From Cupriavidus necator N-1 (GTDB taxonomy: Bacteria; Pseudomonadota; Gammaproteobacteria; Burkholderiales; Burkholderiaceae), in assembly GCF_000219215.1 (NCBI RefSeq), contig NC_015723.1, positions 1,736,001-1,800,000 of the forward strand: a DNA stretch of 64,000 bases. Direction: 5' to 3'. Below the pieces are notes generated by a model. The model saw nothing but the letters and a program-made list of their open reading frames with translations. It made no database searches and was not told the origin of the DNA. A program made the position numbers and the translations under genes. This document shows positions 4,175-21,275 of this stretch, piece after piece. Position 1 is the stretch's first letter. The number at the start of each line of letters is the position of its first letter.

Positions 4175-5239
4175 TCACCGCCGGAACCACAACATCGAGA
4201 GCCCGCACGCCACCCCCAGCAGCAGGACCGCTGCTGCCGAGAACAATGCACTGATCTCGGTTTCCTTGCGCTCGAGCGCGAAGCGGGCGCTGAGCTGGCG
4301 ATACACTCGGCTCAGGTCCGCAGCCGAGCCTGCCTGGAAGTACTCGCCGTCCGTTATCGCCGCTACCGCCCGCAAGGCGGGTTCATCGAGCTGCATGTAG
4401 TAAGACAGGCCCGACTCTATCGTGGCTGCGCCCTGCGGCGTACCGAAGCCCACCGTATAGACGCGCACGCCGCGCTGGGCGGCCATGCGCGCGGCGTCCA
4501 GCGGGTCGGGGCCGGTGGTGCGGCGGCCATCGCTGAGCAGGATCACCGCACCGTGCCGATACGAGCCGGGCTGCGCCGCCGGCCGTTCCTGTTCGCGCTT
4601 GCGGACGGCGTCCGCCGCGGCGGCCTCTGCCAGCGATCTGCCGCCGGGCCCGGGTGCGAGCGACTCGCCGCTGAAAAGGATTGCTTCCAGGTCGATGCCA
4701 TCGTCGGGGAACAACACTGCCAGCGCCTGGATCAGCCCGCTGCCGGTCGCCGTGCCGTGCTGGAGCTGGAAGCGATCGATTGCATCGAGCATGTCCTGCC
4801 GGTTGTCGGTGGGGGGCAGTACCACGGTCGCCGTGGCGGCAAAAGAGACCATGCCCAGGCGCACGCTGGCCGGCAGCCCGACGATGAGATCCCGGGCAGC
4901 CTGCTTGGATGCGGCGATCCGGGTGGGTGCAACGTCGGTCGCCGCCATGCTGCGGGAGGTGTCCATGGCCAGTACCAGGGTGATGGCGTCGGACGGCAGC
5001 GTGATCGTCGCAGTAGGACGGGCGCAAGCCAGCAGGGCCACGCCCAGCGCGAGCAGGAAGAGCAGCGGCGGGATGTGACGCCGCAGTCGTTGGCCGGGAC
5101 CCAGGGCGGCGCGCGGCAGCGCAAGGCTGGCATACAACAGGGCGATTTTCTTGCGCCGCGCAAGCAGGTACAGGTAAGCGGCTGCCAGCAGGGGCAGCAC
5201 GAGCAGCAGCCAGAGCATTTGCGGCCAGAGAAACTGCAT
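4175..5239 (-). CDS. VWA domain membrane protein (BatA-like)
   Basis: The protein has 354 residues when started at the ATG at 5239, which has AAGGAG upstream; an upstream extension in frame would run into the divergent protease gene. Two N-terminal membrane helices (about 5-27 and 55-73) are followed by a von Willebrand A domain with a MIDAS motif DTSRS (D93, S95, S97), and there is a C-terminal helix near 330-350. This is the architecture of the BatA/BatB proteins that accompany MoxR ATPases and DUF58 proteins. It is read divergently from the protease-moxR-DUF58-VWA operon and is clearly a paralogue of the VWA protein at 8294-9352 (shared YF..G.A..L.RVYR tail). Such proteins are thought to bind metal and scaffold envelope complexes; the precise role here is unknown. 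Confidence 0.85.
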
Positions 5240-5314
5240 ACCCGTGCTCCTTGGCGCGTGGGTAAGACGATGGTACTGTATTTTCCACGGCGGGACGGGA
5301 CCTCGGGGGCGGCA

Positions 5315-6256
5315 ATGAAACGGGTATCGATCTACGGATGGGTCTCGGCAGCGGTCGCGCTGGTTCTCGCCGCGGTCGTGGGCTCTGCCTGGCTGTTGCA
5401 ACCGTCGCCGCGCGTCCTAAAGCAATCCGACATCGACGCGGCAGTGCTGCACACGTTGGAGACCAGGCGTCTGCCTTCGCGCACAGCCAGGGCCGCAGAG
5501 GCGGTTCGCGAGTCGGTGGTGGAAGTTCGCAGCTATGCGCCAGCGGAAAAGGCGGCGGACAAGCCGACGGAAGCGGCATCCGCCCGAAACGCCAAACGTG
5601 ATCCCCCTGCCACACGCCCCAAAACCAAATCGCACCCGCCATCCCCGCCGCCCTCTCGCGATGAACTCGCAAAAGGCGACCCATCGGGCGGCAAGGACGA
5701 GTCCGGCGGCAAGCGCAAAGTCCGCAACATCGGTTCGGGTGTGGTCGTGACCGAAAGCGGCATCATTCTCACCAGCTACCACGTCGTCGCCGACGCCCTG
5801 CGCCTGGAGGTCATATTCCACGACGGCCACACGGCCGAGGCCTCGGTGGTGCAGGCGTTCCCGGAGAAAGACCTCGCCGTGATCCGGCCCAGTTCAATCC
5901 CCGACGACCTGCCGCCGGCGACGCTCGGTTCCAGCCGGAACCTCGCGCCCGGGACCGAAGTCGTCGCGGTCGGCTTTCCGTTCGGCATCGGTCCGTCGGT
6001 GTCTGCCGGCGTGGTGTCGGGGCTCGACCGCAGGTTCGTTTCGCCGGACGGCAAGCGGGACCTGGACAAGCTCATCCAGTTCGACGCCGCCGCCAATCCG
6101 GGCAACTCGGGCGGGCCGCTGGTGAATCTGGATGGCGAGGTGGTCGGGATCGTCACCGCCATCCTCAACCCCAACCAGAGCGGCACTTTCCTCGGCATCG
6201 GCTTTGCTGTCACGATCGAAAGCGCCGGCATTGCCATCGGATCCTCTCCTTTCTAG
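5315..6256 (+). CDS. HtrA-like trypsin-type serine protease without PDZ domain
   Basis: This is a 313-residue S1C-type protease with an N-terminal signal anchor (residues 1-24), a low-complexity Pro/Lys/Ser linker (about 75-135) and a trypsin fold. The triad is visible: H156 in SYHVV, D186 in EKDLAVI and S265 in GNSGGPL. It ends about 45 residues after the active serine, so the PDZ domain of DegP/DegS is absent. I chose the ATG at 5315 because it opens directly into a signal sequence; an in-frame ATG at 5270 would add 15 residues and neither start has a strong Shine-Dalgarno. It is 15 bp ahead of moxR and likely co-transcribed. Expected location: periplasm, membrane-anchored. A role in processing envelope proteins with the VWA/MoxR module is inferred. 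Confidence 0.82.
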   Translation: MKRVSIYGWVSAAVALVLAAVVGSAWLLQPSPRVLKQSDIDAAVLHTLETRRLPSRTARAAEAVRESVVEVRSYAPAEKAADKPTEAASARNAKRDPPATRPKTKSHPPSPPPSRDELAKGDPSGGKDESGGKRKVRNIGSGVVVTESGIILTSYHVVADALRLEVIFHDGHTAEASVVQAFPEKDLAVIRPSSIPDDLPPATLGSSRNLAPGTEVVAVGFPFGIGPSVSAGVVSGLDRRFVSPDGKRDLDKLIQFDAAANPGNSGGPLVNLDGEVVGIVTAILNPNQSGTFLGIGFAVTIESAGIAIGSSPF

Positions 6257-6271
6257 ACGCGGGGGCCTTAA

Positions 6272-7262
<991 letters not shown>

Positions 7263-10805: not shown

Positions 10806-12146
10806 ATGCGTACTGTTCTCTATCAGGAAGATGCCGGGCAAGTCACGCACGCGCTGTGCAGGAAAGGGTTGCCTGACGGAGTGAGCCTATCCGCAAGCGG
10901 TGACGGGCTGCTCGTGGTCGTCGTGCGTGCTGCGCCCAGCCGCGTGGCGGAGGCCGCGGAGCAATGGCTGCGCGGGCGGCCGTTGCCGGATGCCTTTATC
11001 GTCGGCTGCACGGACGAGACCCGCTGTCATTGCCGCCCCGAATCCTGGTGGCCATCGTCGGTCTGCGATATCGTGACCGCTGTCGATGATGACTCACTGC
11101 TGAAAGAACTGGCGCTGCGGCTTGCCCGGCTGGCGGAGCTCGAGGAGATCGTCACGTCCGACTGGCTGCGCCGGCGCGCTGTCGGAGAATCGATTGCATG
11201 GCGCAGCACCTTGCGTGCGGTGGCGGAGGCCGGCCGGCTTGGGCGCGGCGCTTGTCTGCTGCTTGGGGAAAGTGGCGTCGGCAAGGAGTTGCTGGCCCGG
11301 CTGGTGCATGATCTCGATCCTTCGCGCAGGCGTGGTCCGTTTGTCGTGGTCGACTGCACGACGCTGAGTCCCGAATTGTCCGGCAGCGAACTGTTCGGCC
11401 ATGCCAAGGGTGCATTCACGCATGCCGTCACGGCGCGCGACGGCGCCGTGGCATTGGCGGACTGCGGAACGCTGTTTCTTGACGAGATCGGCGAACTCGA
11501 GCTGCCGCTCCAGGCGCGGCTGTTGCGCGTGATTCAGGAGCGGATGTACAAGCGCGTGGGGGAAGACACCTGGCGGCGCTCTGACTTTCGCCTCACCTGT
11601 GCGACGAATCGCGATCTCGAAGCCGAGGTGGAGGCCGGGCGCTTTCGCCGCGACCTGTATTTCCGCATCTCGCAATGGACCGTACGTGCACCGTCATTGT
11701 CGGAACGACGCGAAGATATCCCGCTGCTGGTGCGGCACTTCCTGAGCGAGCATGACGACGCGCCGCGTATTATGCCGGAGGTCATGGAACAGCTGATGTG
11801 CCGCGACTACCCCGGCAATGTGCGCGAGTTGCGCAACGTGGTATTACGCATGGCCGAGCGTCAGCGTGGCTTCGGTGTATTGAGCACAGGATCGCTCGAT
11901 CGTCCGTCCATCCCTGCCGCTGCCGATACGCTCGCGGCATGGACGCAGATGCTGGCGCTTGCGGTGGAAGGCGCGCTTGATGCAGGGCTGGGTCTAAAAC
12001 ATATCGGGCAAATTGCCGAGACCATCGCCGTGCAGGCTGCCGAACGACGCACGGGATCGACCAACCGCGCCGCCGAGCTATTGCAGGTCACGCCGCGCGC
12101 CTTGCAATTGCGACGGCAGGTGCGGCCCGACGGTGGCAGCGCGTAG
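10806..12146 (+). CDS. Sigma-54-dependent enhancer-binding transcriptional activator
   Basis: The protein has 446 residues. An N-terminal domain (1-120) that I do not recognise is followed by a sigma-54 AAA+ domain: Walker A GESGVGKE (154-161), the sigma-54 contact loop spelled GAFTHA (202-207) instead of the usual GAFTGA, Walker [10 protein letters not shown] (222-230) and a [10 protein letters not shown] block (335-344). A short Fis-type helix-turn-helix ([18 protein letters not shown]) closes the protein. No canonical receiver, GAF or PAS domain is visible at the N-terminus, although an all-beta/alpha fold is possible. It runs convergently with the six-gene operon, its stop lying 9 bp from that of the amidohydrolase. 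The operon has a sigma-54 promoter and two palindromes upstream, so this is very probably its activator. Confidence 0.92.
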
Positions 12147-12155
12147 GACCCGATC

Positions 12156-12893
12156 TCACGCAACCGATACACGTCGCAGCAATCGCAAGGCATTACCGCC
12201 CGCGATCCACGCGAACGCGTCGGCGGATGGACGCAAAGCGCGGATCTTGGCAAGTTCGAGGCCCGGGTGCAACCAGGGACCATCGGAGCCGAACAACAGC
12301 TTGTGCGGCCCCGCGCGATGCAGCGCCTCTTCAAGCAGATCGAAGCGGCGCACACCGGCGGTGTCGGCGAACAGGTTGGGATGCCGTTCGATCAGGTCAA
12401 TCACGCGGCGCTGGGCCGCCCAGTCGTCGGCGAAACTACCAAGATGCGCGAACACGAACGCGACGCTGGGGTGCGTCTGCGCCAGCAGGCTTAGCGCACC
12501 GACATCGCCACCGGGGTCGTAGAGTACCGGCAGTTGCCAACGTTGCGCAGCATCGCAAACCTGTCGATGGATGGGTGCGTCGTGGTTATGCACCTTGATG
12601 CCGCGCAGTCCCAGCCGCAGGACCGCCTCCTCGATCATCGCGTGCACACGGTCACGGTCGCGCACGGCGTGGACCATCGCGAAGCCGGTCCAGCGACCCG
12701 GATCGGCACGCACCAGCGCAGCGACGTCGCGATTCCCTTGCGCATAGTCAGACTGGAATACCGGCAGCAGAATCGAATGGCTGATACCCGCTTCGCGCGC
12801 CCGGCGTGCGTAAGCGGCCAACGGTGCCGTGGTGTCCCAGGGACCGGTCATGCCATCGCCCTGCCCGGCGTGGACGTGGAAGTCGAGGATCAT
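12156..12893 (-). CDS. Amidohydrolase-2 family TIM-barrel metal-dependent hydrolase
   Basis: This 245-residue protein has the HxH metal motif at the N-terminus (DFHVHAG, H6 and H8), an HNH near the middle (GIKVHNH), FAHLGSF and the C-terminal metal Asp in FGSDGPW. These fit the amidohydrolase-2 (ACMSD/LigI-like) family, which performs hydrolysis or non-oxidative decarboxylation. It is the last gene of the sigma-54-controlled operon and overlaps the GIY-YIG gene by 4 nt (ATGA). It is cytoplasmic, with no signal peptide. Its substrate is unknown; within this operon it might act on a product linked to the upstream PLP enzyme, but this is inference. Confidence 0.8.
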   Translation of the reverse strand: MILDFHVHAGQGDGMTGPWDTTAPLAAYARRAREAGISHSILLPVFQSDYAQGNRDVAALVRADPGRWTGFAMVHAVRDRDRVHAMIEEAVLRLGLRGIKVHNHDAPIHRQVCDAAQRWQLPVLYDPGGDVGALSLLAQTHPSVAFVFAHLGSFADDWAAQRRVIDLIERHPNLFADTAGVRRFDLLEEALHRAGPHKLLFGSDGPWLHPGLELAKIRALRPSADAFAWIAGGNALRLLRRVSVA

Positions 12894-13741
12894 GGCGCGG
12901 CGTAGGCATCGAAAGGCACTTCGAACTGCGTTCCCGCCTTGATATGCATCGTATTGGCCGTCGGCCGAAAGTCCTTTGCCAGCTCCGGGGGCATGGCGTT
13001 GCGTATGACAAGGTCTTTCTCACCGACTGTCACCAGATTGGTCAGCACCCGGTTCGCCAGCGTCGATGGCATTCCCGATCTAAGCCTTCCGTTCAATCGC
13101 AGCTTCCGATCCACCCAGCTGAGCAATGTGTGCTCGATTGCCGCCGCTACCGGGTTCTTCCGCGTAGGAGCGGTCCAGATGAATTTCGGTCCCACGCATG
13201 TAAGCGCCCGCTGGTACTGAAACCATTGTCTAAGCCGGGCTTCGAGCGCATTGGAGTGACCGATGTAGGTGGGCACCGCGCCATCACTGAATATGTAGAC
13301 CCCAGGTCCCGCAACGCCGCGAGAAGCGTCTTCCAGGGAGCTCCAGCGCCTCCACTTCAGTTCGATATCCAATGACACGGGCGGCGGTGCCAACTTCGGC
13401 CGCAGATGTGTCAATTCCTCATCGAAGGCTTCGGACAGGTGCCCCAGCGACGGCATCGGGGACAAGCTCAGTCCCACCAGCGACAGCACGCCCTGCTGCT
13501 GGCGCGCCAGTAGACACGCCTGGCAACATGCACCCTCGCCCCGGCTCTCGAATCGCGCGGTACCCAGCCGCGGCTGGGTGCTGACGCGCCGAGCACGCGC
13601 AACAATCTGGCGCAGGTCGTTGACGAGCATCTGCGGCGGCGTTCCGGGCGGATAGCGGCGCGCGTCGGCCACGAGCCGCATCAGCCGGCGCATGCGCCAC
13701 GGTGCCAGGTCAAGGATTTCGCCGTCTGCGGTCTTAAACAT
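12890..13741 (-). CDS. GIY-YIG domain protein of unknown role
   Basis: I start the gene at the ATG at 13741, which has GGAGG upstream and overlaps the preceding gene by 8 nt; a longer reading frame to 13933 lies inside that gene. The protein has 283 residues. The N-terminal half (1-120) is not recognised and carries ACCQAC at 71-76. The second half has a GIY-YIG fold: GVY (147-149), TYIG (158-161), conserved Arg169 and a candidate catalytic Glu203 in AAIEHTLL. GIY-YIG domains usually cut DNA, but in this operon of enzymes and a protease-like protein the substrate may differ. All canonical residues are present, so activity is plausible. It overlaps the amidohydrolase gene by 4 nt. Confidence 0.72.
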   Translation of the reverse strand: MFKTADGEILDLAPWRMRRLMRLVADARRYPPGTPPQMLVNDLRQIVARARRVSTQPRLGTARFESRGEGACCQACLLARQQQGVLSLVGLSLSPMPSLGHLSEAFDEELTHLRPKLAPPPVSLDIELKWRRWSSLEDASRGVAGPGVYIFSDGAVPTYIGHSNALEARLRQWFQYQRALTCVGPKFIWTAPTRKNPVAAAIEHTLLSWVDRKLRLNGRLRSGMPSTLANRVLTNLVTVGEKDLVIRNAMPPELAKDFRPTANTMHIKAGTQFEVPFDAYAAP

Positions 13742-14855
13742 GATGCCTCCCCATGGACTTGGATAGCGTTTCGTCGGACGCGGGCAGCGCAGGCGCCGTC
13801 GCTGCCATCGTCTGCACCAGTCCGTCGATATCGGACAGCCGATGATCGGCACGCACGATCGCGACCACCGCATGGCGGTTCTCGGCATCGTGCAATAACG
13901 CGGTACGAAACCCACACGCACGCAGCGAGGCATGCAGCGCCTGTGTTCGCCCCGGCGTACTCAGATGAATACGTTGCATCGGATGCAGTGGCAGCGTTGC
14001 GGACAGATCTGGCAGCACGGTACGAGCCAGCGACAGCAGGCCCGCACGCAGCCGCCGCACGAAGTAGAGCAGGCGCGTACGCAGCCAGTCTCCGGTGCGC
14101 CGATTGGCGTCTAGTGCATCGAGCGCCGCCAACAGCGCGGCCTGGTTAGCAGCGCTGCAATGCGACTGCGTGGGACCATTGCACGCAATGTCACTGACCA
14201 ACGCGGCGGGCCCGCACAGCGTGGCCAGCGGCACGCCGAATGCCTTGGCCCATGACGCCAACAGCAGGACCGGGTCCGATGGCCCCAGGCCGCCGTGCAC
14301 GGCGATGCCACCACCACCCAGCCCCCACGGCTGCTTTGGTATGGGATGCTCACCGAGGAGCCCAAGGACCTGACTATGGTCGATCACGAGCAAGCCATCG
14401 CGTGAAGCGACGGCTTCCAGATATCCCTGCGGCGCGATCGGCATGCCGTTCCGCAGTGTGGCGTCTGTGATGACTGCCGGCGGCTTGCCCGCCCTGCTAC
14501 GGCGCAATACGCGTACCAGTGCGGCAGGATCGCCATGCGCGAACCACGACAGCGATGCGCCCAAGCCACTTACGCGCTCGAGGCTCCAGCGCATGACCGG
14601 ATATAGCGCTTCGTCGGCAATCAACACGTGGCTGCGCGCGAGGCGGTCGAAGGTATCGATCGCCAGATGCAGCGTGGACGGCGCCACCGCACCGGCCTCG
14701 CAACCCTGCAACTCGGCTGCGCGCGCGGCAACGCCACGCGCCTGCGGCGATGCCGCGAGCGATGCGGGCACACCGCTCGTCAATGCGGCATAGTCGCCGA
14801 GGCGCGCGGCCGGATGCGTCATGCCAAGGTATAACGCCGAGGCAAAGTCGATCAT
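13734..14855 (-). CDS. AONS-like fold-type I PLP-dependent enzyme
   Basis: The 373-residue protein resembles the alpha-oxoamine synthase / class I-II aminotransferase group (8-amino-7-oxononanoate synthase, KBL). The Schiff-base lysine is K204 in LLLASWAKAFGVP, and the PLP-pyridine Asp is D159 in LLVIDHSQVLGLLG. Compared with the usual DEAHS signature, the conserved His is replaced by Gln (DHSQ), which departs from true AONS enzymes. Family members condense an amino acid with an acyl-CoA; the substrates here are unknown. No bio genes are nearby, so a biotin role is unlikely. It overlaps its upstream neighbour by 4 nt (ATGA) and the GIY-YIG gene by 8 nt. Confidence 0.75.
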   Translation of the reverse strand: MIDFASALYLGMTHPAARLGDYAALTSGVPASLAASPQARGVAARAAELQGCEAGAVAPSTLHLAIDTFDRLARSHVLIADEALYPVMRWSLERVSGLGASLSWFAHGDPAALVRVLRRSRAGKPPAVITDATLRNGMPIAPQGYLEAVASRDGLLVIDHSQVLGLLGEHPIPKQPWGLGGGGIAVHGGLGPSDPVLLLASWAKAFGVPLATLCGPAALVSDIACNGPTQSHCSAANQAALLAALDALDANRRTGDWLRTRLLYFVRRLRAGLLSLARTVLPDLSATLPLHPMQRIHLSTPGRTQALHASLRACGFRTALLHDAENRHAVVAIVRADHRLSDIDGLVQTMAATAPALPASDETLSKSMGRHHV

Positions 14856-17014
14856 GGCCGCGGCCCCTCACGCCACCCGCTTCCCTTGTACTCGTGCAAC
14901 CGGCGCAGCAGATGCATGCCCGGGACCTGCACGTCCACCGGCTCAGCACCCACGTCGACGCCCGTTACCGCGCGATACGAGTGGATATACGCCTGGATCT
15001 CAGGCCGGAAGAATGCGGCCCAGTTGGCAGCATTCGCGGGATCGTGGATCGAGTTCCAGTCGCTCCAGCGGATCGACGCCACGATCTGCTCGCCCATGGT
15101 GGCGAGCTGCCAGAACTGGTAGGGATTGGTGTCGCCCCAGCCCTGCAGCTTGCGCATGCTTTCCACCGAATGCATCCACGGCTCAGGGTACGCGATCATC
15201 GAGCGCCGCGGCAGGAACTCGCGGAACTCGGGCCGCGCCAGCATCCATTGCTGCATCATCATTTCCACGCGTGATGTAGTGGGCAGATCGCGGAACTGGT
15301 TGTGCGCGCCTTCCGAAAGAATCAGGTGGACTTCGCGCAGCGCGTTGAGCAGCGGGAACCCGTCCGGCACCACCGTGGTGTCGTCGGCCTGGCGGAAGAA
15401 CGGCACGCACAGATTGAGCAGCGTATGGAACGCGGCGAGGAACTTGCTGCGCGTGTCGGCCGCTTGCATGCGCGGCACCGCCTTGCCGATCAGCTGGAAC
15501 CCGTATTCGTGCAGATACTCCGCGGCGCGGCGCTCGATCGGCAGCCGGTGCTGCTCGTCCTGGACCCAGCCCCAGATCATGTTGTTGAGCGGCCGCAGCG
15601 GATCCATCTCGAGTGCGCCAAGCGGATCGTTCGGGCCCGACGCTACGTTCTGGAAGCGGCGCGAGATGGCGTTCATCGTCTGCACGAGCTGGAGCTCTTC
15701 CATCCAGTAACTCCAGATCAGTTCGACGAGGGGCGGCTGCGCGAGCTTGGCCGAGACATTGCGGTTCCAGAATTGCAGCCAGAGACATCCCTCGCCACAC
15801 ATGTCCCGCTCCTCGCCGGCGAGCGTGATTTCATCGTCGACCATGTTCTCGATCATGCCCGCGGCATCGGTACCGCCCATGGCCAACGCCACACGCTGCA
15901 GGTAGGGAATGGCCGGCGGAATGTTGTTTTCCTCGCCGAAGTACTTGAGGGCCAGTGCCTTGATATCGGGCTCGGTGAGGTTCAGCCCCAACCGTTCATT
16001 CGCGAGGTCGCGAACAGCGGGATCGGCAATCAGCAGGTCTACCATCGTCTGCAGCTCCGAGGCCGGCGGTACCACAGCGCCCCAGGTCACGACGAATGCT
16101 TCGGTCGCGACCTTGAGGGCGCGATAGGCATCAGTGTCCGTGAATGGCAGAAAGCGGCGGTGACTGAGTTCGACGGCCTTTTTGTACAGCGGTGCGTTAG
16201 TGCCGACGTCCCTGCCGACATCCCCTGATTTAGCGAACGATTTCGGGAAGAACAGGCGGTCCATCTGTTCGATGTAGTTGTCCCACCCGAGCTTCACCGA
16301 ATTGAGCTTGATCAGCATCCACAAGCCGACGTCACCGGTCAATGCGCGGGTGGTGCGCTGGAGCGTGACGGGCCTGGGATGACCGTCGTGTTCCCGCGAC
16401 ATCGGGCCGGAGCGCTCGGTGATGGGGTCGGGGAGCGGGAGATAGCGGTGCGTCTTAGGTGTTACCGCCGGCAGATTGGCTGAGGCGGCGGCTTCGGCAG
16501 GCATCGCGATCGGCGTAGCATGCAGAGCAGTGGCCGTAGCGATGATCGTCGGATCCGGTGTGGGCGCCGGCGCCACGACGGCGGGTGCCGCAACCGTCTC
16601 CGGTTGATCTGCGGCCAATGTCGCGTAGATCATCACTCCGTTGTCATGATCTAGCGTCGCGCTCAGAATCGTATACGGCATCGCGTGCGATTCAAAGTCC
16701 GATAAGGTGAACATGCTCTGGAGCTTGTGCCTGAATTCGACTATTTGCTTGTCGATGTCCGGCCCGTTTGGGCCCCTCTCAACCCCTTGCCCTTTAAGCC
16801 AAATCTTCAATTCGACACGGTACGTGGGATCGTAGTCCACGCTACTTTCCTTGGGGAAACTCAGGAAATCGGGCATGGAATCAGCGATGTACTGACAGTC
16901 TCGGACGACAACCCAGGCGTGCTTGAGCACGCTGCGGGGGTTCGGTAGCTCGTGCTTCCCTTTTCCAATCGCCGCACGCGGGCGAAGCTGGACCGGCAGA
17001 TAGATCTCGCTCAT
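14852..17014 (-). CDS. Large protein of unknown family (720 aa)
   Basis: I do not recognise this protein. The N-terminal 130 residues look like a compact domain. An Ala/Pro/Thr-rich linker (about 135-195) follows, and a long, Trp- and Met-rich, mainly helical C-terminal part (about 210-720) contains EERDMCGEGCLWLQFW, MIWGWVQDEQHRLP and YQFWQLATMGEQIVASIRWSDW. There is no signal peptide and no clear transmembrane helix, so it is probably cytoplasmic or secreted by another route. No nucleotide-binding or catalytic motif stands out. It is the third gene of the sigma-54 operon, 25 bp after the HEVGH gene, and overlaps the PLP-enzyme gene by 4 nt. Its size and central place suggest it is a core component of whatever the operon makes. 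Confidence 0.7.
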   Translation of the reverse strand: MSEIYLPVQLRPRAAIGKGKHELPNPRSVLKHAWVVVRDCQYIADSMPDFLSFPKESSVDYDPTYRVELKIWLKGQGVERGPNGPDIDKQIVEFRHKLQSMFTLSDFESHAMPYTILSATLDHDNGVMIYATLAADQPETVAAPAVVAPAPTPDPTIIATATALHATPIAMPAEAAASANLPAVTPKTHRYLPLPDPITERSGPMSREHDGHPRPVTLQRTTRALTGDVGLWMLIKLNSVKLGWDNYIEQMDRLFFPKSFAKSGDVGRDVGTNAPLYKKAVELSHRRFLPFTDTDAYRALKVATEAFVVTWGAVVPPASELQTMVDLLIADPAVRDLANERLGLNLTEPDIKALALKYFGEENNIPPAIPYLQRVALAMGGTDAAGMIENMVDDEITLAGEERDMCGEGCLWLQFWNRNVSAKLAQPPLVELIWSYWMEELQLVQTMNAISRRFQNVASGPNDPLGALEMDPLRPLNNMIWGWVQDEQHRLPIERRAAEYLHEYGFQLIGKAVPRMQAADTRSKFLAAFHTLLNLCVPFFRQADDTTVVPDGFPLLNALREVHLILSEGAHNQFRDLPTTSRVEMMMQQWMLARPEFREFLPRRSMIAYPEPWMHSVESMRKLQGWGDTNPYQFWQLATMGEQIVASIRWSDWNSIHDPANAANWAAFFRPEIQAYIHSYRAVTGVDVGAEPVDVQVPGMHLLRRLHEYKGSGWREGPRP

Positions 17015-17039
17015 CTTCGTTCTCCTTGATCATCGAGCT

Positions 17040-18398
17040 TCACGCATACGCCGCAAACGGCAACCCATGACTCTGGCGCGGCGCTGGCACCGGCCGCCGC
17101 TGGTTCAGCACTACGCTCAGTTGCGGGTCTCCCGCGCGCCACGGCAGATACCCCGCCAGTGCCCAGCGCTGCAGCAGTTCCGAAATCACGCCCAGTTCCT
17201 GACTGGCGGGCAGCAGCCCACTGAAGCGCGCCTGCCCGAGTACCGCGAACGCGAGCGTGGGGGTATCGGCCAGGTACTGCTGCGGCCTGGACCTGACCAT
17301 GTGCCAGCGTTGCAGCAGCAGGCGCGGATGGCGGTCGGGCAAACGCAAGGCTTCGCCAAGCATGCGTCCCTGCAACGACGGCGGGCGGATTGACAGCAGC
17401 GCCGACACGAAAGCGGGGATGGCCGCGCCTAGCGTCTCGAACGACTTTCGCTGGCTGGCCGACATTTGCGAGGGCGGATACAGTCGCTCCCACAGCTGCG
17501 CCAGTTCGGCCCACTGCGGATGGGGATAGAGCGCGTTGCCCATGGCGATCGACAGCTTGACGCGGATCCACGGCGCCGGGTGGGGATCGTCGAGATTGAT
17601 GCGCAGGACGAACGCGCGCGGCAGGCTCACCACGCTCATCAGCCCGCAGGTGGCCGCGATGCCAACGCGCGACACCGCCCACAGATCCGCGACAATCTCG
17701 CTGATCCAGCGCTCCCAGACCCGCCAGATCGAATGTGCCGGACCGCGCCCGAAGCTGGCCGCCGACGCGCGCCGGTAGCTGTTCACGAGATCGAGCAACG
17801 CCGCTGCCTGGTGCCCGACCTCATGAAACAGCGACGCGGCCACGCCGGTGCCGACCATGCGTTCGCGCGGCATGCGAATCACCGCGACCGGATTGGCGCC
17901 ACCGCCCGGCAGGCGCGTGCGTGCGCGCCGGATGGCACCGCCATGCCCGCGCTCCACGTAGCAGATGACCGGTGGCGGCGCCATCGACAGGCCCGGCTGC
18001 CTGAGCCCGTCCTGCGCCGCCACGTCGAGCCCCGACAGCCAGATGCCCGTGCCATGCTGGCTGCGCTGCGTCAGCACTTCCGCAAAGATCTCGAAGTGCG
18101 TCAGTGCCGCATGGAAATAGAGCTTGAGCAAGGCGTAGCGTTGCTGCGCACGGGCCACGTCGACGGGCACCGGCAGCGCGTGCCGCAGATCGCGCAGGAA
18201 CCGCGCGATGCGGATGCGCAACTGCCTGCGCGCGGCCTGCATATGACGCTCGATGGCCCCCATCGCTTCGTCGCTGACATTGGCGGCGGGCACCATCGGC
18301 ATCTGCAGCGCATAGGGTAGCTGGGCATCGAGCCGGGCGCGTATGCCCAGCACCTCCTGCTCGAGCAGGCGCAGCGCGTGTGTGCATGCGTTGGTCAC
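17040..18398 (-). CDS. Gluzincin-like HExxH protein, putative zinc metallopeptidase
   Basis: The 452-residue protein has HEVGH at 192-196 (SLFHEVGHQAAALLDL) and a downstream WISEIVADLWA whose E234 fits the third zinc ligand of gluzincins (HExxH plus ExxxD). This arrangement suggests an active zinc peptidase, although I cannot assign a MEROPS family. The N-terminal 140 residues are helical and Arg-rich. No signal peptide is present. It lies 17 bp downstream of the EFE-repeat gene and 25 bp upstream of the 720-aa gene in the sigma-54 operon. A natural guess is that it processes or binds the repeat protein encoded just before it, but nothing in the sequence proves this. Confidence 0.75.
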   Translation of the reverse strand: MTNACTHALRLLEQEVLGIRARLDAQLPYALQMPMVPAANVSDEAMGAIERHMQAARRQLRIRIARFLRDLRHALPVPVDVARAQQRYALLKLYFHAALTHFEIFAEVLTQRSQHGTGIWLSGLDVAAQDGLRQPGLSMAPPPVICYVERGHGGAIRRARTRLPGGGANPVAVIRMPRERMVGTGVAASLFHEVGHQAAALLDLVNSYRRASAASFGRGPAHSIWRVWERWISEIVADLWAVSRVGIAATCGLMSVVSLPRAFVLRINLDDPHPAPWIRVKLSIAMGNALYPHPQWAELAQLWERLYPPSQMSASQRKSFETLGAAIPAFVSALLSIRPPSLQGRMLGEALRLPDRHPRLLLQRWHMVRSRPQQYLADTPTLAFAVLGQARFSGLLPASQELGVISELLQRWALAGYLPWRAGDPQLSVVLNQRRPVPAPRQSHGLPFAAYA

Positions 18399-18415
18399 GG
18401 CGGGTCTCCGCGCGC

Positions 18416-19354
18416 TCAGTACGCCGGCCGCGGCGACGCGAGATACAGAATGATGGCGCGGCCATTGCGCGAGCGGCGCCAGGTGCCGCGGGCGGGGATC
18501 GCATGCACATGGCCCGTCGGGCGGGTGCCGCAGGTGGGGCAGGTCGCTGTCGCGCCGGCAATGCCCGTAACGCCGGGAGCGCCGGTCGCGCCGTTGACAG
18601 CGGGGACGCCGCCGAACGTCGGGGGCGCGGGCACAGTTTCCGTTGCCCCGCCGAAGATCGGCATGGGCAATTGGCGTGCGGAAGCCACACCGTTCTGCGA
18701 GATGGCACGCATCGCTGGCAGCAGGCCCGGCGCCACCTGCCGCGCACCGCGCAGGAACGCAATGCGCGCCGCGCGTGCGGGCGGCATATTGCGCGGCATC
18801 GACATGAGGTGGTTGGTCGCATGCTGGCCGATCCTGACCAGCCGGCGCGCGACTTCGAATTCGCGGTCCTCGTTACTGAGTCCCTCGAGCTCGAGCCCGA
18901 GCGCACTGCCGGCCATGCCCGCGAGCTTGCCGCCGATCAACCCACCCGCCCCTGGAACCACCAGATTGCCGAGCGCCGATCCGACGATCGGCAGTGCCGA
19001 CTTGGTAGCGGAACGCAGAATGCCGCCGAGCGCCTTGCCGGCCGCCGACCGGGCGAATCCCGTGGCCGCACGGCCTACAGACCTGACCAGGCCGCCAAGG
19101 AACTGTTCGAGCTCCTGCTCGCTGTTCACCGCCAGCAGCTCCGCGGCGAGCTCGAGCTCATGCATCTCGCCCGAGACTTCCTGCTCGAACTCGTTCTCGA
19201 ACTCATGCTCGGCCTGTTCGAACTCGTTCTCGAACTCGTTGGCGAATTCGTTCTCCTGCTCGAATTCACCCGACATTTCCGTGGCGAGTTCGTGTTCAAA
19301 CTCGTTGTAGCCAGCGCTCCAACCGCCAGGCCTCGAGCTTCCGATATCGTGCAT
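18416..19354 (-). CDS. Acidic EFE-repeat / glycine-zipper small protein, first gene of the sigma-54 operon
   Basis: The start is the ATG at 19354, preceded by a perfect AAAGGAG; a longer frame to 19432 would begin upstream of the promoter and is rejected. The 312-residue protein has four visible parts. Residues 17-68 form an acidic array of EFE/NEFE units (such as NEFENEFEQ). Residues 85-152 form a glycine-zipper, membrane-prone stretch (GKALGG, GSALG, GLIGGKLAGMAGSALG). A helical Arg/Ala-rich region (165-225) follows. The tail has a Pro/Gly/Thr-rich linker, CPTCG at 272-276 and a basic terminus (GTWRRSRNGRAIILYL). There is no classical signal peptide. I do not recognise a named family. Acidic repeats ahead of a glycine zipper suggest a leader-like or chaperoned membrane-active protein. 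Confidence 0.78.
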   Translation of the reverse strand: MHDIGSSRPGGWSAGYNEFEHELATEMSGEFEQENEFANEFENEFEQAEHEFENEFEQEVSGEMHELELAAELLAVNSEQELEQFLGGLVRSVGRAATGFARSAAGKALGGILRSATKSALPIVGSALGNLVVPGAGGLIGGKLAGMAGSALGLELEGLSNEDREFEVARRLVRIGQHATNHLMSMPRNMPPARAARIAFLRGARQVAPGLLPAMRAISQNGVASARQLPMPIFGGATETVPAPPTFGGVPAVNGATGAPGVTGIAGATATCPTCGTRPTGHVHAIPARGTWRRSRNGRAIILYLASPRPAY

Positions 19355-19408
19355 TTGCGGCTCCTTTCCGTTGAGGTAGGCGAGAGAGAACCTCGCGAAC
19401 CAGCTAAC

Positions 19409-19423
19409 GCAGGAGCCGTGCCA
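19409..19423 (-). promoter_or_regulatory. Sigma-54 (-24/-12) promoter of the EFE-repeat operon
   Basis: Read on the minus strand the site is TGGCACGGCTCCTGC. Against the consensus TGGCACGNNNNTTGC only one position differs (T to C), and the invariant GG (-24) and GC (-12) have correct spacing. Transcription would start near 19397, about 43 nt ahead of the AAAGGAG-led ATG at 19354. This rules out the longer start at 19432. Confidence 0.85.
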
Positions 19424-19489
19424 TCGCGTCACAAGACGATAGGCCGCTGATTTATTGGGGAATTTTGCCGATGGGCGGACGACAGGAGC

Positions 19490-19505
19490 GCGAAGATTGC
19501 TTCGC
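19490..19505. promoter_or_regulatory. Proximal enhancer (UAS) palindrome for the sigma-54 activator
   Basis: GCGAAG-ATTG-CTTCGC is a perfect inverted repeat, 67 bp upstream of the -24 element of the sigma-54 promoter. It shares its arms with a second palindrome whose centre is exactly 42 bp away, four helical turns. This is the usual layout for a hexamer-forming enhancer-binding protein. The regulator encoded at 10806-12146 is the obvious candidate. Confidence 0.75.
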
Positions 19506-19531
19506 TTTCAAGGGCTATCGCTAGACTGGAC

Positions 19532-19547
19532 GCGAAGCAGGCTTCGC
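19532..19547. promoter_or_regulatory. Distal enhancer (UAS) palindrome for the sigma-54 activator
   Basis: GCGAAG-CAGG-CTTCGC repeats the arms of the site at 19490-19505 with a different 4-bp spacer, also preceded by C. Only the arms are conserved, which points to protein recognition rather than duplication. The rest of 19548-19836, up to the binding-protein gene, shows no gene I can support. Confidence 0.75.
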
Positions 19548-20963: not shown

Positions 20964-21275
20964 ATGAACAAGTTCGTCGCGACCGCGATCGCACTCTGCC
21001 TTGGCGCCGCTTCGCTGGCCGTGCAGGCACAGACCGGCGGCAAGAAGCAGTTCGATCCGTATTCCCAGGGCGCCAAGTCGGGTGAGAAGTTCGACCCGTA
21101 CACCCAGGGGGCCAAGGCCGGCGACAAGTTCGACCCGTACACCCAGGGCGCGAACAAGAGCACCCGCAGCGAGCTGACCGACGCTTCCGCGCCGGCCGCC
21201 GAGCAAAAGCCGGCCAAGAAGTCCACCAAGAAGAAGAGCAAGAAGAAGGCCGCTTCGGCGCCGGCTGCCAGCTGA
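20964..21275 (+). CDS. Small exported FDPY-repeat protein
   Basis: This 103-residue protein has a clear signal peptide (MNKFVATAIALCLGAASLAVQA-QT). Three near-identical units follow: QFDPYSQGAKSGE, KFDPYTQGAKAGD and KFDPYTQGANKST (about residues 28-65). The tail is Lys-rich (KPAKKSTKKKSKKK), probably binding a polyanion such as lipopolysaccharide or nucleic acid. The ATG at 20964 has CAGGAG upstream. A strong bidirectional terminator follows. I recognise no named family. A second protein at 37219-37494 has similar DPF..GA units. Confidence 0.8.
   Translation: MNKFVATAIALCLGAASLAVQAQTGGKKQFDPYSQGAKSGEKFDPYTQGAKAGDKFDPYTQGANKSTRSELTDASAPAAEQKPAKKSTKKKSKKKAASAPAAS

Follow-up and report, generated by a model that had tools for sequence, protein, structure and literature searches.

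In PMC3482391, polymorphic toxin systems are described as combining interchangeable nuclease, peptidase and wall-hydrolase cargo with an associated zinc peptidase. The same source describes Photorhabdus virulence cassettes (PVC) and extracellular contractile injection systems (eCIS) in which an HExxH peptidase, the PVC-metallopeptidase with the motif HExxHxxQ-E, is tied to varied toxin cargo, including an OmpA-type domain. Here, we describe a gene cluster whose cargo logic resembles that of polymorphic toxin systems. It lies in a stretch of 64,000 nucleotides of Cupriavidus necator N-1 (NC_015723.1, positions 1,736,001 to 1,800,000; hereafter the window, numbered from its first letter) and comprises six genes, g1 to g6, facing a seventh, g7, that encodes a sigma-54 activator. 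Comparison between genomes shows a fixed core: an acidic-leader protein rich in EFE repeats (g1), a zincin-like protein (g2), a 720-residue protein (g3), a pyridoxal 5′-phosphate (PLP) enzyme (g4), an amidohydrolase (g6) and the activator. Between g4 and g6 lies a slot whose gene content differs between loci and which, in the window, is occupied by the GIY-YIG gene g5. An earlier note on this DNA had proposed a six-gene set; its core recurs, and the GIY-YIG gene proved to be an occupant of the variable slot rather than one of six fixed genes. We favor, with confidence that is evenly balanced, a sigma-54-switched system that would ready cargo of lysin and nuclease type for either delivery or lysis.

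The likeness to polymorphic toxin systems includes a PT-VENN domain, matched by 2 of 125 slot proteins, and PT-TG, to which 13 of 62 g3 relatives have a weak match (best E 0.0049). Here, however, the cargo consists of separate genes in an operon slot under its own sigma-54 switch, and no known trafficking module or immunity gene was recognized, immunity genes not having been searched for systematically. In contrast to the HExxHxxQ-E of the PVC-metallopeptidase, g2 is a separate protein with HExxHQ..ExxxD. An eCIS as obligatory partner was rejected for the host (G000), whose genome has no eCIS_core; within the genus, this marker is present in 1 of the 12 genomes that carry the cluster and in 10 of the 48 others. 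The type VI secretion system (T6SS) was likewise rejected as obligatory partner for the host, since VipA/TssB is missing from the system-carrying genomes G000, G001 and G005; its marker is uncorrelated with the cluster across the genus (9/12 system-positive versus 36/48 other genomes). Anti-phage defense was rejected with PADLOC, in which g2 to g6 have no match at E ≤ 1; the AAA+ and helix-turn-helix (HTH) part of g7 matches RtcR-type models, and g1 weakly matches LeoA (E 2.5e-4) and LeoBC (9.1e-4), perhaps through composition. Literature judged by titles and the first lines of abstracts, mostly outside subscription journals, yielded no description of the cluster. We rate it as new as a system: it either fails the membership tests of the systems considered or cannot be carried through them.

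Recurrence and composition of the core

Loci were collected by a scan with g3 as the query, one genome per species, and the best 80 of 147 confirmed loci were analyzed. Of 7999 candidates scored against the query, at least 1650 are homologues; for g2 and the EFE family, at least 5444 and at least 1125 homologues were scored, each among ~8000 candidates. By record titles, the 80 loci belong to Pseudomonadota, Nitrospira, Acidobacteria, Bacteroidetes and Chloroflexi. Five partners of g3 were counted: the EFE protein, the HExxH protein, the PLP enzyme, the amidohydrolase and the convergent activator. After 22 of the 80 loci had been set aside for short flanks, 58 could be judged on both sides: 51 have all five partners, six have four and one has three. 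The EFE family and g2 lie upstream of g3 in all 66 loci whose upstream sequence spans 4 kb or more; downstream, g4 follows in 69/74, g6 in 60/64 and the convergent activator in 63/64 loci. The partner profiles behind these counts were built from the same loci, and tblastn with the window’s own proteins gave the same partner picture. Eight loci come from outside the discovery set (L115, L116, L140, L142, L143, L145, L146 and L147, including Ensifer and Rhizobium plasmids and P. phymatum pBPHY01), L141 and L144 being excluded as duplicates of L030 and L028. All eight have the EFE protein, g2, g3 and the convergent activator, six have g4 and five have g6. The earlier note had proposed looking for at least four of its families together with a sigma-54 activator and had named the absence of conserved adjacency as grounds for dismissal; the co-occurrence extends across phyla with the promoter conserved, and adjacency is retained.

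A check independent of g3 covered 369 class-level genomes, the host included: g2 is found in five and g3 in four, and the two genes are adjacent in 4/4. At genus level, the cluster, scored by g3, is present in 12 of 60 genomes. The copy in the genus member G001 has 48% identity, whereas a Pseudomonas copy has 69%; this mismatch and the patchy spread point to horizontal transfer. A phage origin was rejected, g2 having no match in 50,697 phage records. Among 72,556 plasmid records g3 occurs in four, and the EFE family has a single copy in the host genome. That unrelated metabolic genes are neighbors by chance might be argued from the Pfam scan, in which g6 alone of the six genes passes its cut-off (joined by g7 among the seven) and g1, g2 and g3 reach no Pfam or NCBIfam family over cut-off. 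Gene order, promoter and enhancer are nevertheless conserved across phyla, which refutes the idea and leaves it practically no probability.

The EFE repeats ascribed to g1 by the earlier note are borne out: its first 75 residues contain 13 EFE-type triplets, a number reached by 0 of 2000 shuffles (mean 2.6). EFE proteins share a conserved domain of more than 200 residues, and 39 loci have three EFE-positive open reading frames (ORFs). Some g1 homologues are labeled DUF697 family by one source; g1 itself has no DUF697 match. In g2, HExxH and ExxxD, the gluzincin signature, are invariant in 40/40 aligned relatives and also in another set of six. Its predicted model has a predicted local distance difference test (pLDDT) score of 86.6, and its VIA-align rows lie mostly over the helical N-terminus. 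Compared with the M48-type peptidase BepA (6ait), g2 gives a Z within the range of common arrangements; its best PDB profile match is an unrelated chain (E 0.24), and PDB sequence searches returned nothing below E 0.04.

The PLP enzyme g4 resembles 8-amino-7-oxononanoate synthases (AONS, BioF) in a weak bioF match and in the PLP-site Asp and Lys, D159 and K204, kept in at least 95% of 67 sequences; they correspond to the pyridine-binding aspartate and the Schiff-base lysine. It differs in its score (E 5.6e-7, 28.6 bits, under the curated cut-off of 426), in an N-terminal SALYLGxxH motif of its own and in DxxQ, where AONS enzymes have DxxH. The amidohydrolase g6 matches Amidohydro_2 with 76.2 bits, above the Pfam cut-off of 26.4, and its HxH (H6, H8), H150 and D204 are conserved across relatives. 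Conserved HExxH..ExxxD and PLP-site residues, and EFE genes that are often multicopy, would suit a peptide or small-molecule product, with the EFE protein as precursor, g2 to cut it and the PLP enzyme and the amidohydrolase to modify it. The earlier note had offered a reading of this kind, in which g1 would be the substrate, g2 the protease and g4 the modifying enzyme. An EFE domain of such length is, however, unlike a short core peptide, the slot contents point elsewhere, and Pfam finds no transporter among the six proteins; we regard such a product as improbable.

The largest core protein, g3, has a variable N-terminus followed by a conserved helical part rich in invariant Asp, Glu and His. 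Several g3 homologues are named 8-amino-7-oxononanoate synthase in NCBI and UniRef; g3 itself has no such match, and the name looks misplaced, the AONS-like gene being the neighbor g4. In some of 62 g3 relatives the N-terminus is Ig- or prealbumin-like (CarboxypepD_reg in 12, SpaA in 5, Big_1 in 2). Such domains, together with peptidoglycan (PG)-binding domains in the slot, would agree with an extracellular or surface matrix in which EFE proteins and g3 build a structure anchoring wall enzymes. As judged by hydropathy only, g1 to g3 have no evident signal peptide and no strongly hydrophobic N-terminus, which speaks against this alternative, and we consider it very unlikely.

The variable slot and the leader of its proteins

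The slot set holds 128 proteins, 125 of which entered the Pfam scan (the other three are two g4 proteins and a 76-residue ORF); the window’s g5 is not among the 125. At E ≤ 0.05, the commonest matches are GIY-YIG (28), PG_binding_1 (16), PG_binding_3 (12) and Amidase_2 (9), followed by M20 (8), OmpA (6), VanY (5) and Trypsin_2 (3), with NlpC/P60 and PT-VENN twice and Muramidase and HNH once each. In 120 flanking controls, the slot families are not among the 25 families listed of 246, so no slot family matched there more than twice. Some slot proteins combine several of these domains: PG-binding, a GIY-YIG-like region and an EFE domain in L044, Amidase_2 with GIY-YIG in L074 and L087, and PG-binding, muramidase and amidase in L064. 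With its wall-active and nuclease-type genes, the slot shifts the likely function from a processed peptide toward a lysin or effector system. The window’s own cargo, g5, matches Pfam GIY-YIG with E 0.023 and 15.4 bits, under the cut-off of 22.6. Eleven aligned slot homologues keep the GIY and YIG positions as well as R, E and N, the catalytic residues of the family, and g5 agrees by eye; conserved residues across relatives back both weak matches of the window, to GIY-YIG and to AONS.

An EFE domain is carried by 46 of the 128 slot proteins. A short acidic-aromatic stretch also opens several slot proteins, as in MRPSLVFEPEPF, MRYALAFEAEPF and MNQELSFEMIPF. The motif F-[EAR]-x-x-[PS]-F is found near the start of 26/128 slot proteins, compared with 0/433 controls and 0/225 g2, g3 and g6 proteins. 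Likewise, at least four EF/FE-type pairs within 60 residues occur in 23 of 82 slot proteins that have no EFE domain versus 8 of 433 controls. A relaxed form of the motif is present in 21/82 of the original slot proteins versus 4/653 other genes.

The same slot contents support the main rival explanation, which we think unlikely: the activator would turn on wall turnover, remodeling or programmed autolysis of the producer under stress, with amidases, VanY, muramidase and M20 cutting or recycling peptidoglycan and g4 and g6 acting in a related salvage route. The wall-active domains and M20 peptidases fit such a program; so would an operon in which the Pfam scan shows no export machine and in which no immunity gene, not systematically searched for, was recognized. 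On the other hand, the GIY-YIG (28), PT-VENN (2) and HNH (1) proteins among the 125 are a misfit for wall turnover, and a spread as patchy as that of g2 (5/369 class-level genomes) and g3 (12/60 of the genus) is unusual for housekeeping.

Sigma-54 control and locus layout

The claim of a near-consensus sigma-54 promoter in the earlier note agrees with our count: 10 of 11 fixed positions match TGGCACG-N4-TTGC. Scored against a fixed -24/-12 consensus, a site of at least 0.9 precedes 53 of 70 leader genes (the window and 69 loci; 11 of 81 loci were dropped for short upstream sequence). The corresponding rates are 0.8% for 626 other genes from these loci and 0.5% for shuffled sequence. The paired enhancer palindromes reported earlier are two exact copies in the window, and the pair GCGAAG-N4-CTTCGC, 41–44 bp apart and with 0–2 mismatches per copy, was found in 14/14 close loci (the window, L024–L035 and L143, the last being 88% identical to L031). 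These loci come from Cupriavidus, Burkholderia/Caballeronia, Paraburkholderia, Pseudomonas and Silvimonas, and their palindromes lie at ~-195 and ~-152, i.e., ~120 and ~80 bp 5′ of the -24 element. The number of dyads with arms of at least 7 in the window’s upstream region is unremarkable, 13% of simple shuffles equaling it, which counts against the palindromes; they are supported because two copies recur at this 41–44-bp spacing in all the close loci examined. The host genome has an RpoN gene. Judged from its promoters, the cluster is sigma-54-controlled as a family. With an activator gene facing it, a sigma-54 promoter and paired enhancer sites, the operon probably stays off until the activator is triggered, g7 being the putative enhancer-binding inducer.

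Of 65 aligned activators, 13 have GAFTHA in place of GAFTGA in the contact loop, and these are exactly the window’s clade (window, L024–L035); three Bacteroidota loci have GAFTNA there. In NorR, changes at the loop glycine of GAFTGA alter control. L116 has, upstream of the cluster, an additional AAA+ gene of activator type (4980–6395) whose start is receiver-like.

The coordinates (Table 1) confirm the tight operon described in the earlier note, with g3 to g6 overlapping by 4–8 nt and the first three genes 17–25 bp apart. The gaps are 17 bp between g1 and g2 and 25 bp between g2 and g3; g3/g4 and g5/g6 each overlap by 4 nt, and g4/g5 by 8 nt when g5 starts, as in its relatives, at the conserved MFKTADGE (13741) and not at the start of the longer listed ORF. 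The convergence of g6 on the activator was also described correctly, the two stops being 9 bp apart. Farther along the window, 20964–21275 encodes a small protein with FDPYTQGAK-type repeats whose start resembles a signal peptide.

Table 1. Genes and control elements of the cluster, in window coordinates.
Feature	Position	Strand	Details
g1, EFE-repeat/glycine-zipper protein, 312 aa	18416..19354	minus	MHDIGSSRPGG... start, GGAG ribosome-binding site
g2, 452 aa, gluzincin-type zinc peptidase motif	17040..18398	minus	HEVGH (192-196) and E234xxxD238
g3, 720 aa, no known family	14852..17014	minus	conserved helical C-terminal part from ~residue 215
g4, AONS-like fold-type-I PLP enzyme, 373 aa	13734..14855	minus	D159, Q162, S201, K204
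g5, GIY-YIG-domain protein, ~283 aa from MFKTADGE	12890..13741	minus	slot (cargo) gene
g6, Amidohydro_2 enzyme, 245 aa	12156..12893	minus	Pfam match over cut-off; H6, H8, H150, D204
g7, convergent sigma-54 activator, 446 aa	10806..12146	plus	AAA+ domain with GAFTHA loop; weak C-terminal Fis-type HTH; N-terminal domain without assignment
sigma-54 promoter TGGCACG-GCTC-CTGC	19409..19423 (read 19423-19409)	minus	-24 element 69 nt 5′ of g1 start
proximal enhancer palindrome	19490..19505	none	exact GCGAAG-N4-CTTCGC
distal enhancer palindrome	19532..19547	none	exact GCGAAG-N4-CTTCGC

Candidate function of the cluster

In the favored reading, a sigma-54-switched system for lysin- and nuclease-type cargo, the leader would mark proteins for the core, and the zinc peptidase g2 would trim or mature the leader-bearing proteins. 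The glycine-zipper EFE protein and g3 may serve as carrier, pore or scaffold, while the PLP enzyme and the amidohydrolase could add or take off a small modification. The cargo, which in the window would be the single GIY-YIG protein g5, may act on competitors or on the producer undergoing lysis, with the envelope or nucleic acid as its target. In this reading, the route of export, the cleavage of the leader and what g3, the PLP enzyme and the amidohydrolase do are inferred.

Several results weigh against this reading. The leader motif was picked post hoc from the same proteins in which it was counted, with relatives counted repeatedly; neither the strict motif nor a GIY-YIG regular expression has a match in seven outside-set loci, and the relaxed motif, formed after those loci had been seen, occurs in 2 of 12 ORFs there. 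In the window, g5 has no EFE leader and g1 alone is EFE-rich. Most of the GIY-YIG matches with a shown score fall below the Pfam cut-off, and M20 peptidases suit recycling as well as attack. The eight outside-set loci, whose gene starts are uncertain, have a promoter scoring at least 0.9 in three cases, 0.80–0.87 in three, 0.73 in one and none in one. The g3 model is poor (pLDDT 56.5), its fold matches were not used, and Foldseek gives no match at E ≤ 0.001 for either the g2 or the g3 model. Finally, neither secretion machinery nor signal peptides were recognized, nor any gene for lysis or immunity, with no systematic search beyond Pfam and hydropathy.

Three further loci, L114, L138 and L139, have a divergent HExxH g2 located after a long acidic-leader protein and before a protein of 370–381 residues, followed in L139 by a 1835-residue protein with a VanY domain. 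This arrangement may represent a second type of the system. A profile comparison of g3 with the 381-residue protein of the divergent type was not significant (0.4% probability, E 0.17); a TG-D-L stretch stands at the end of both. A more ambitious version of the favored reading, which we offer tentatively and are inclined to doubt, is that of a new protein-targeting and release machine operating without T6SS or eCIS, with a portable tag, a dedicated carrier, tag removal and a modification for passage, of which L114, L138 and L139 would be a sister lineage. The acidic-aromatic EFE/PFE leader would recruit unrelated lysins and nucleases to a carrier formed by the EFE glycine-zipper protein and the 720-residue protein; the zinc peptidase would then cut the tag off, and the PLP enzyme with the amidohydrolase would install or edit the modification required for passage.

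Both g2 and g3 are widespread in sequence databases yet belong to no Pfam or NCBIfam family, and the promoter and enhancer make the cluster testable now. If true, a slot rich in wall hydrolases and nuclease domains, served by a conserved core under sigma-54 control of its own, would be a further system of bacterial competition or controlled lysis.

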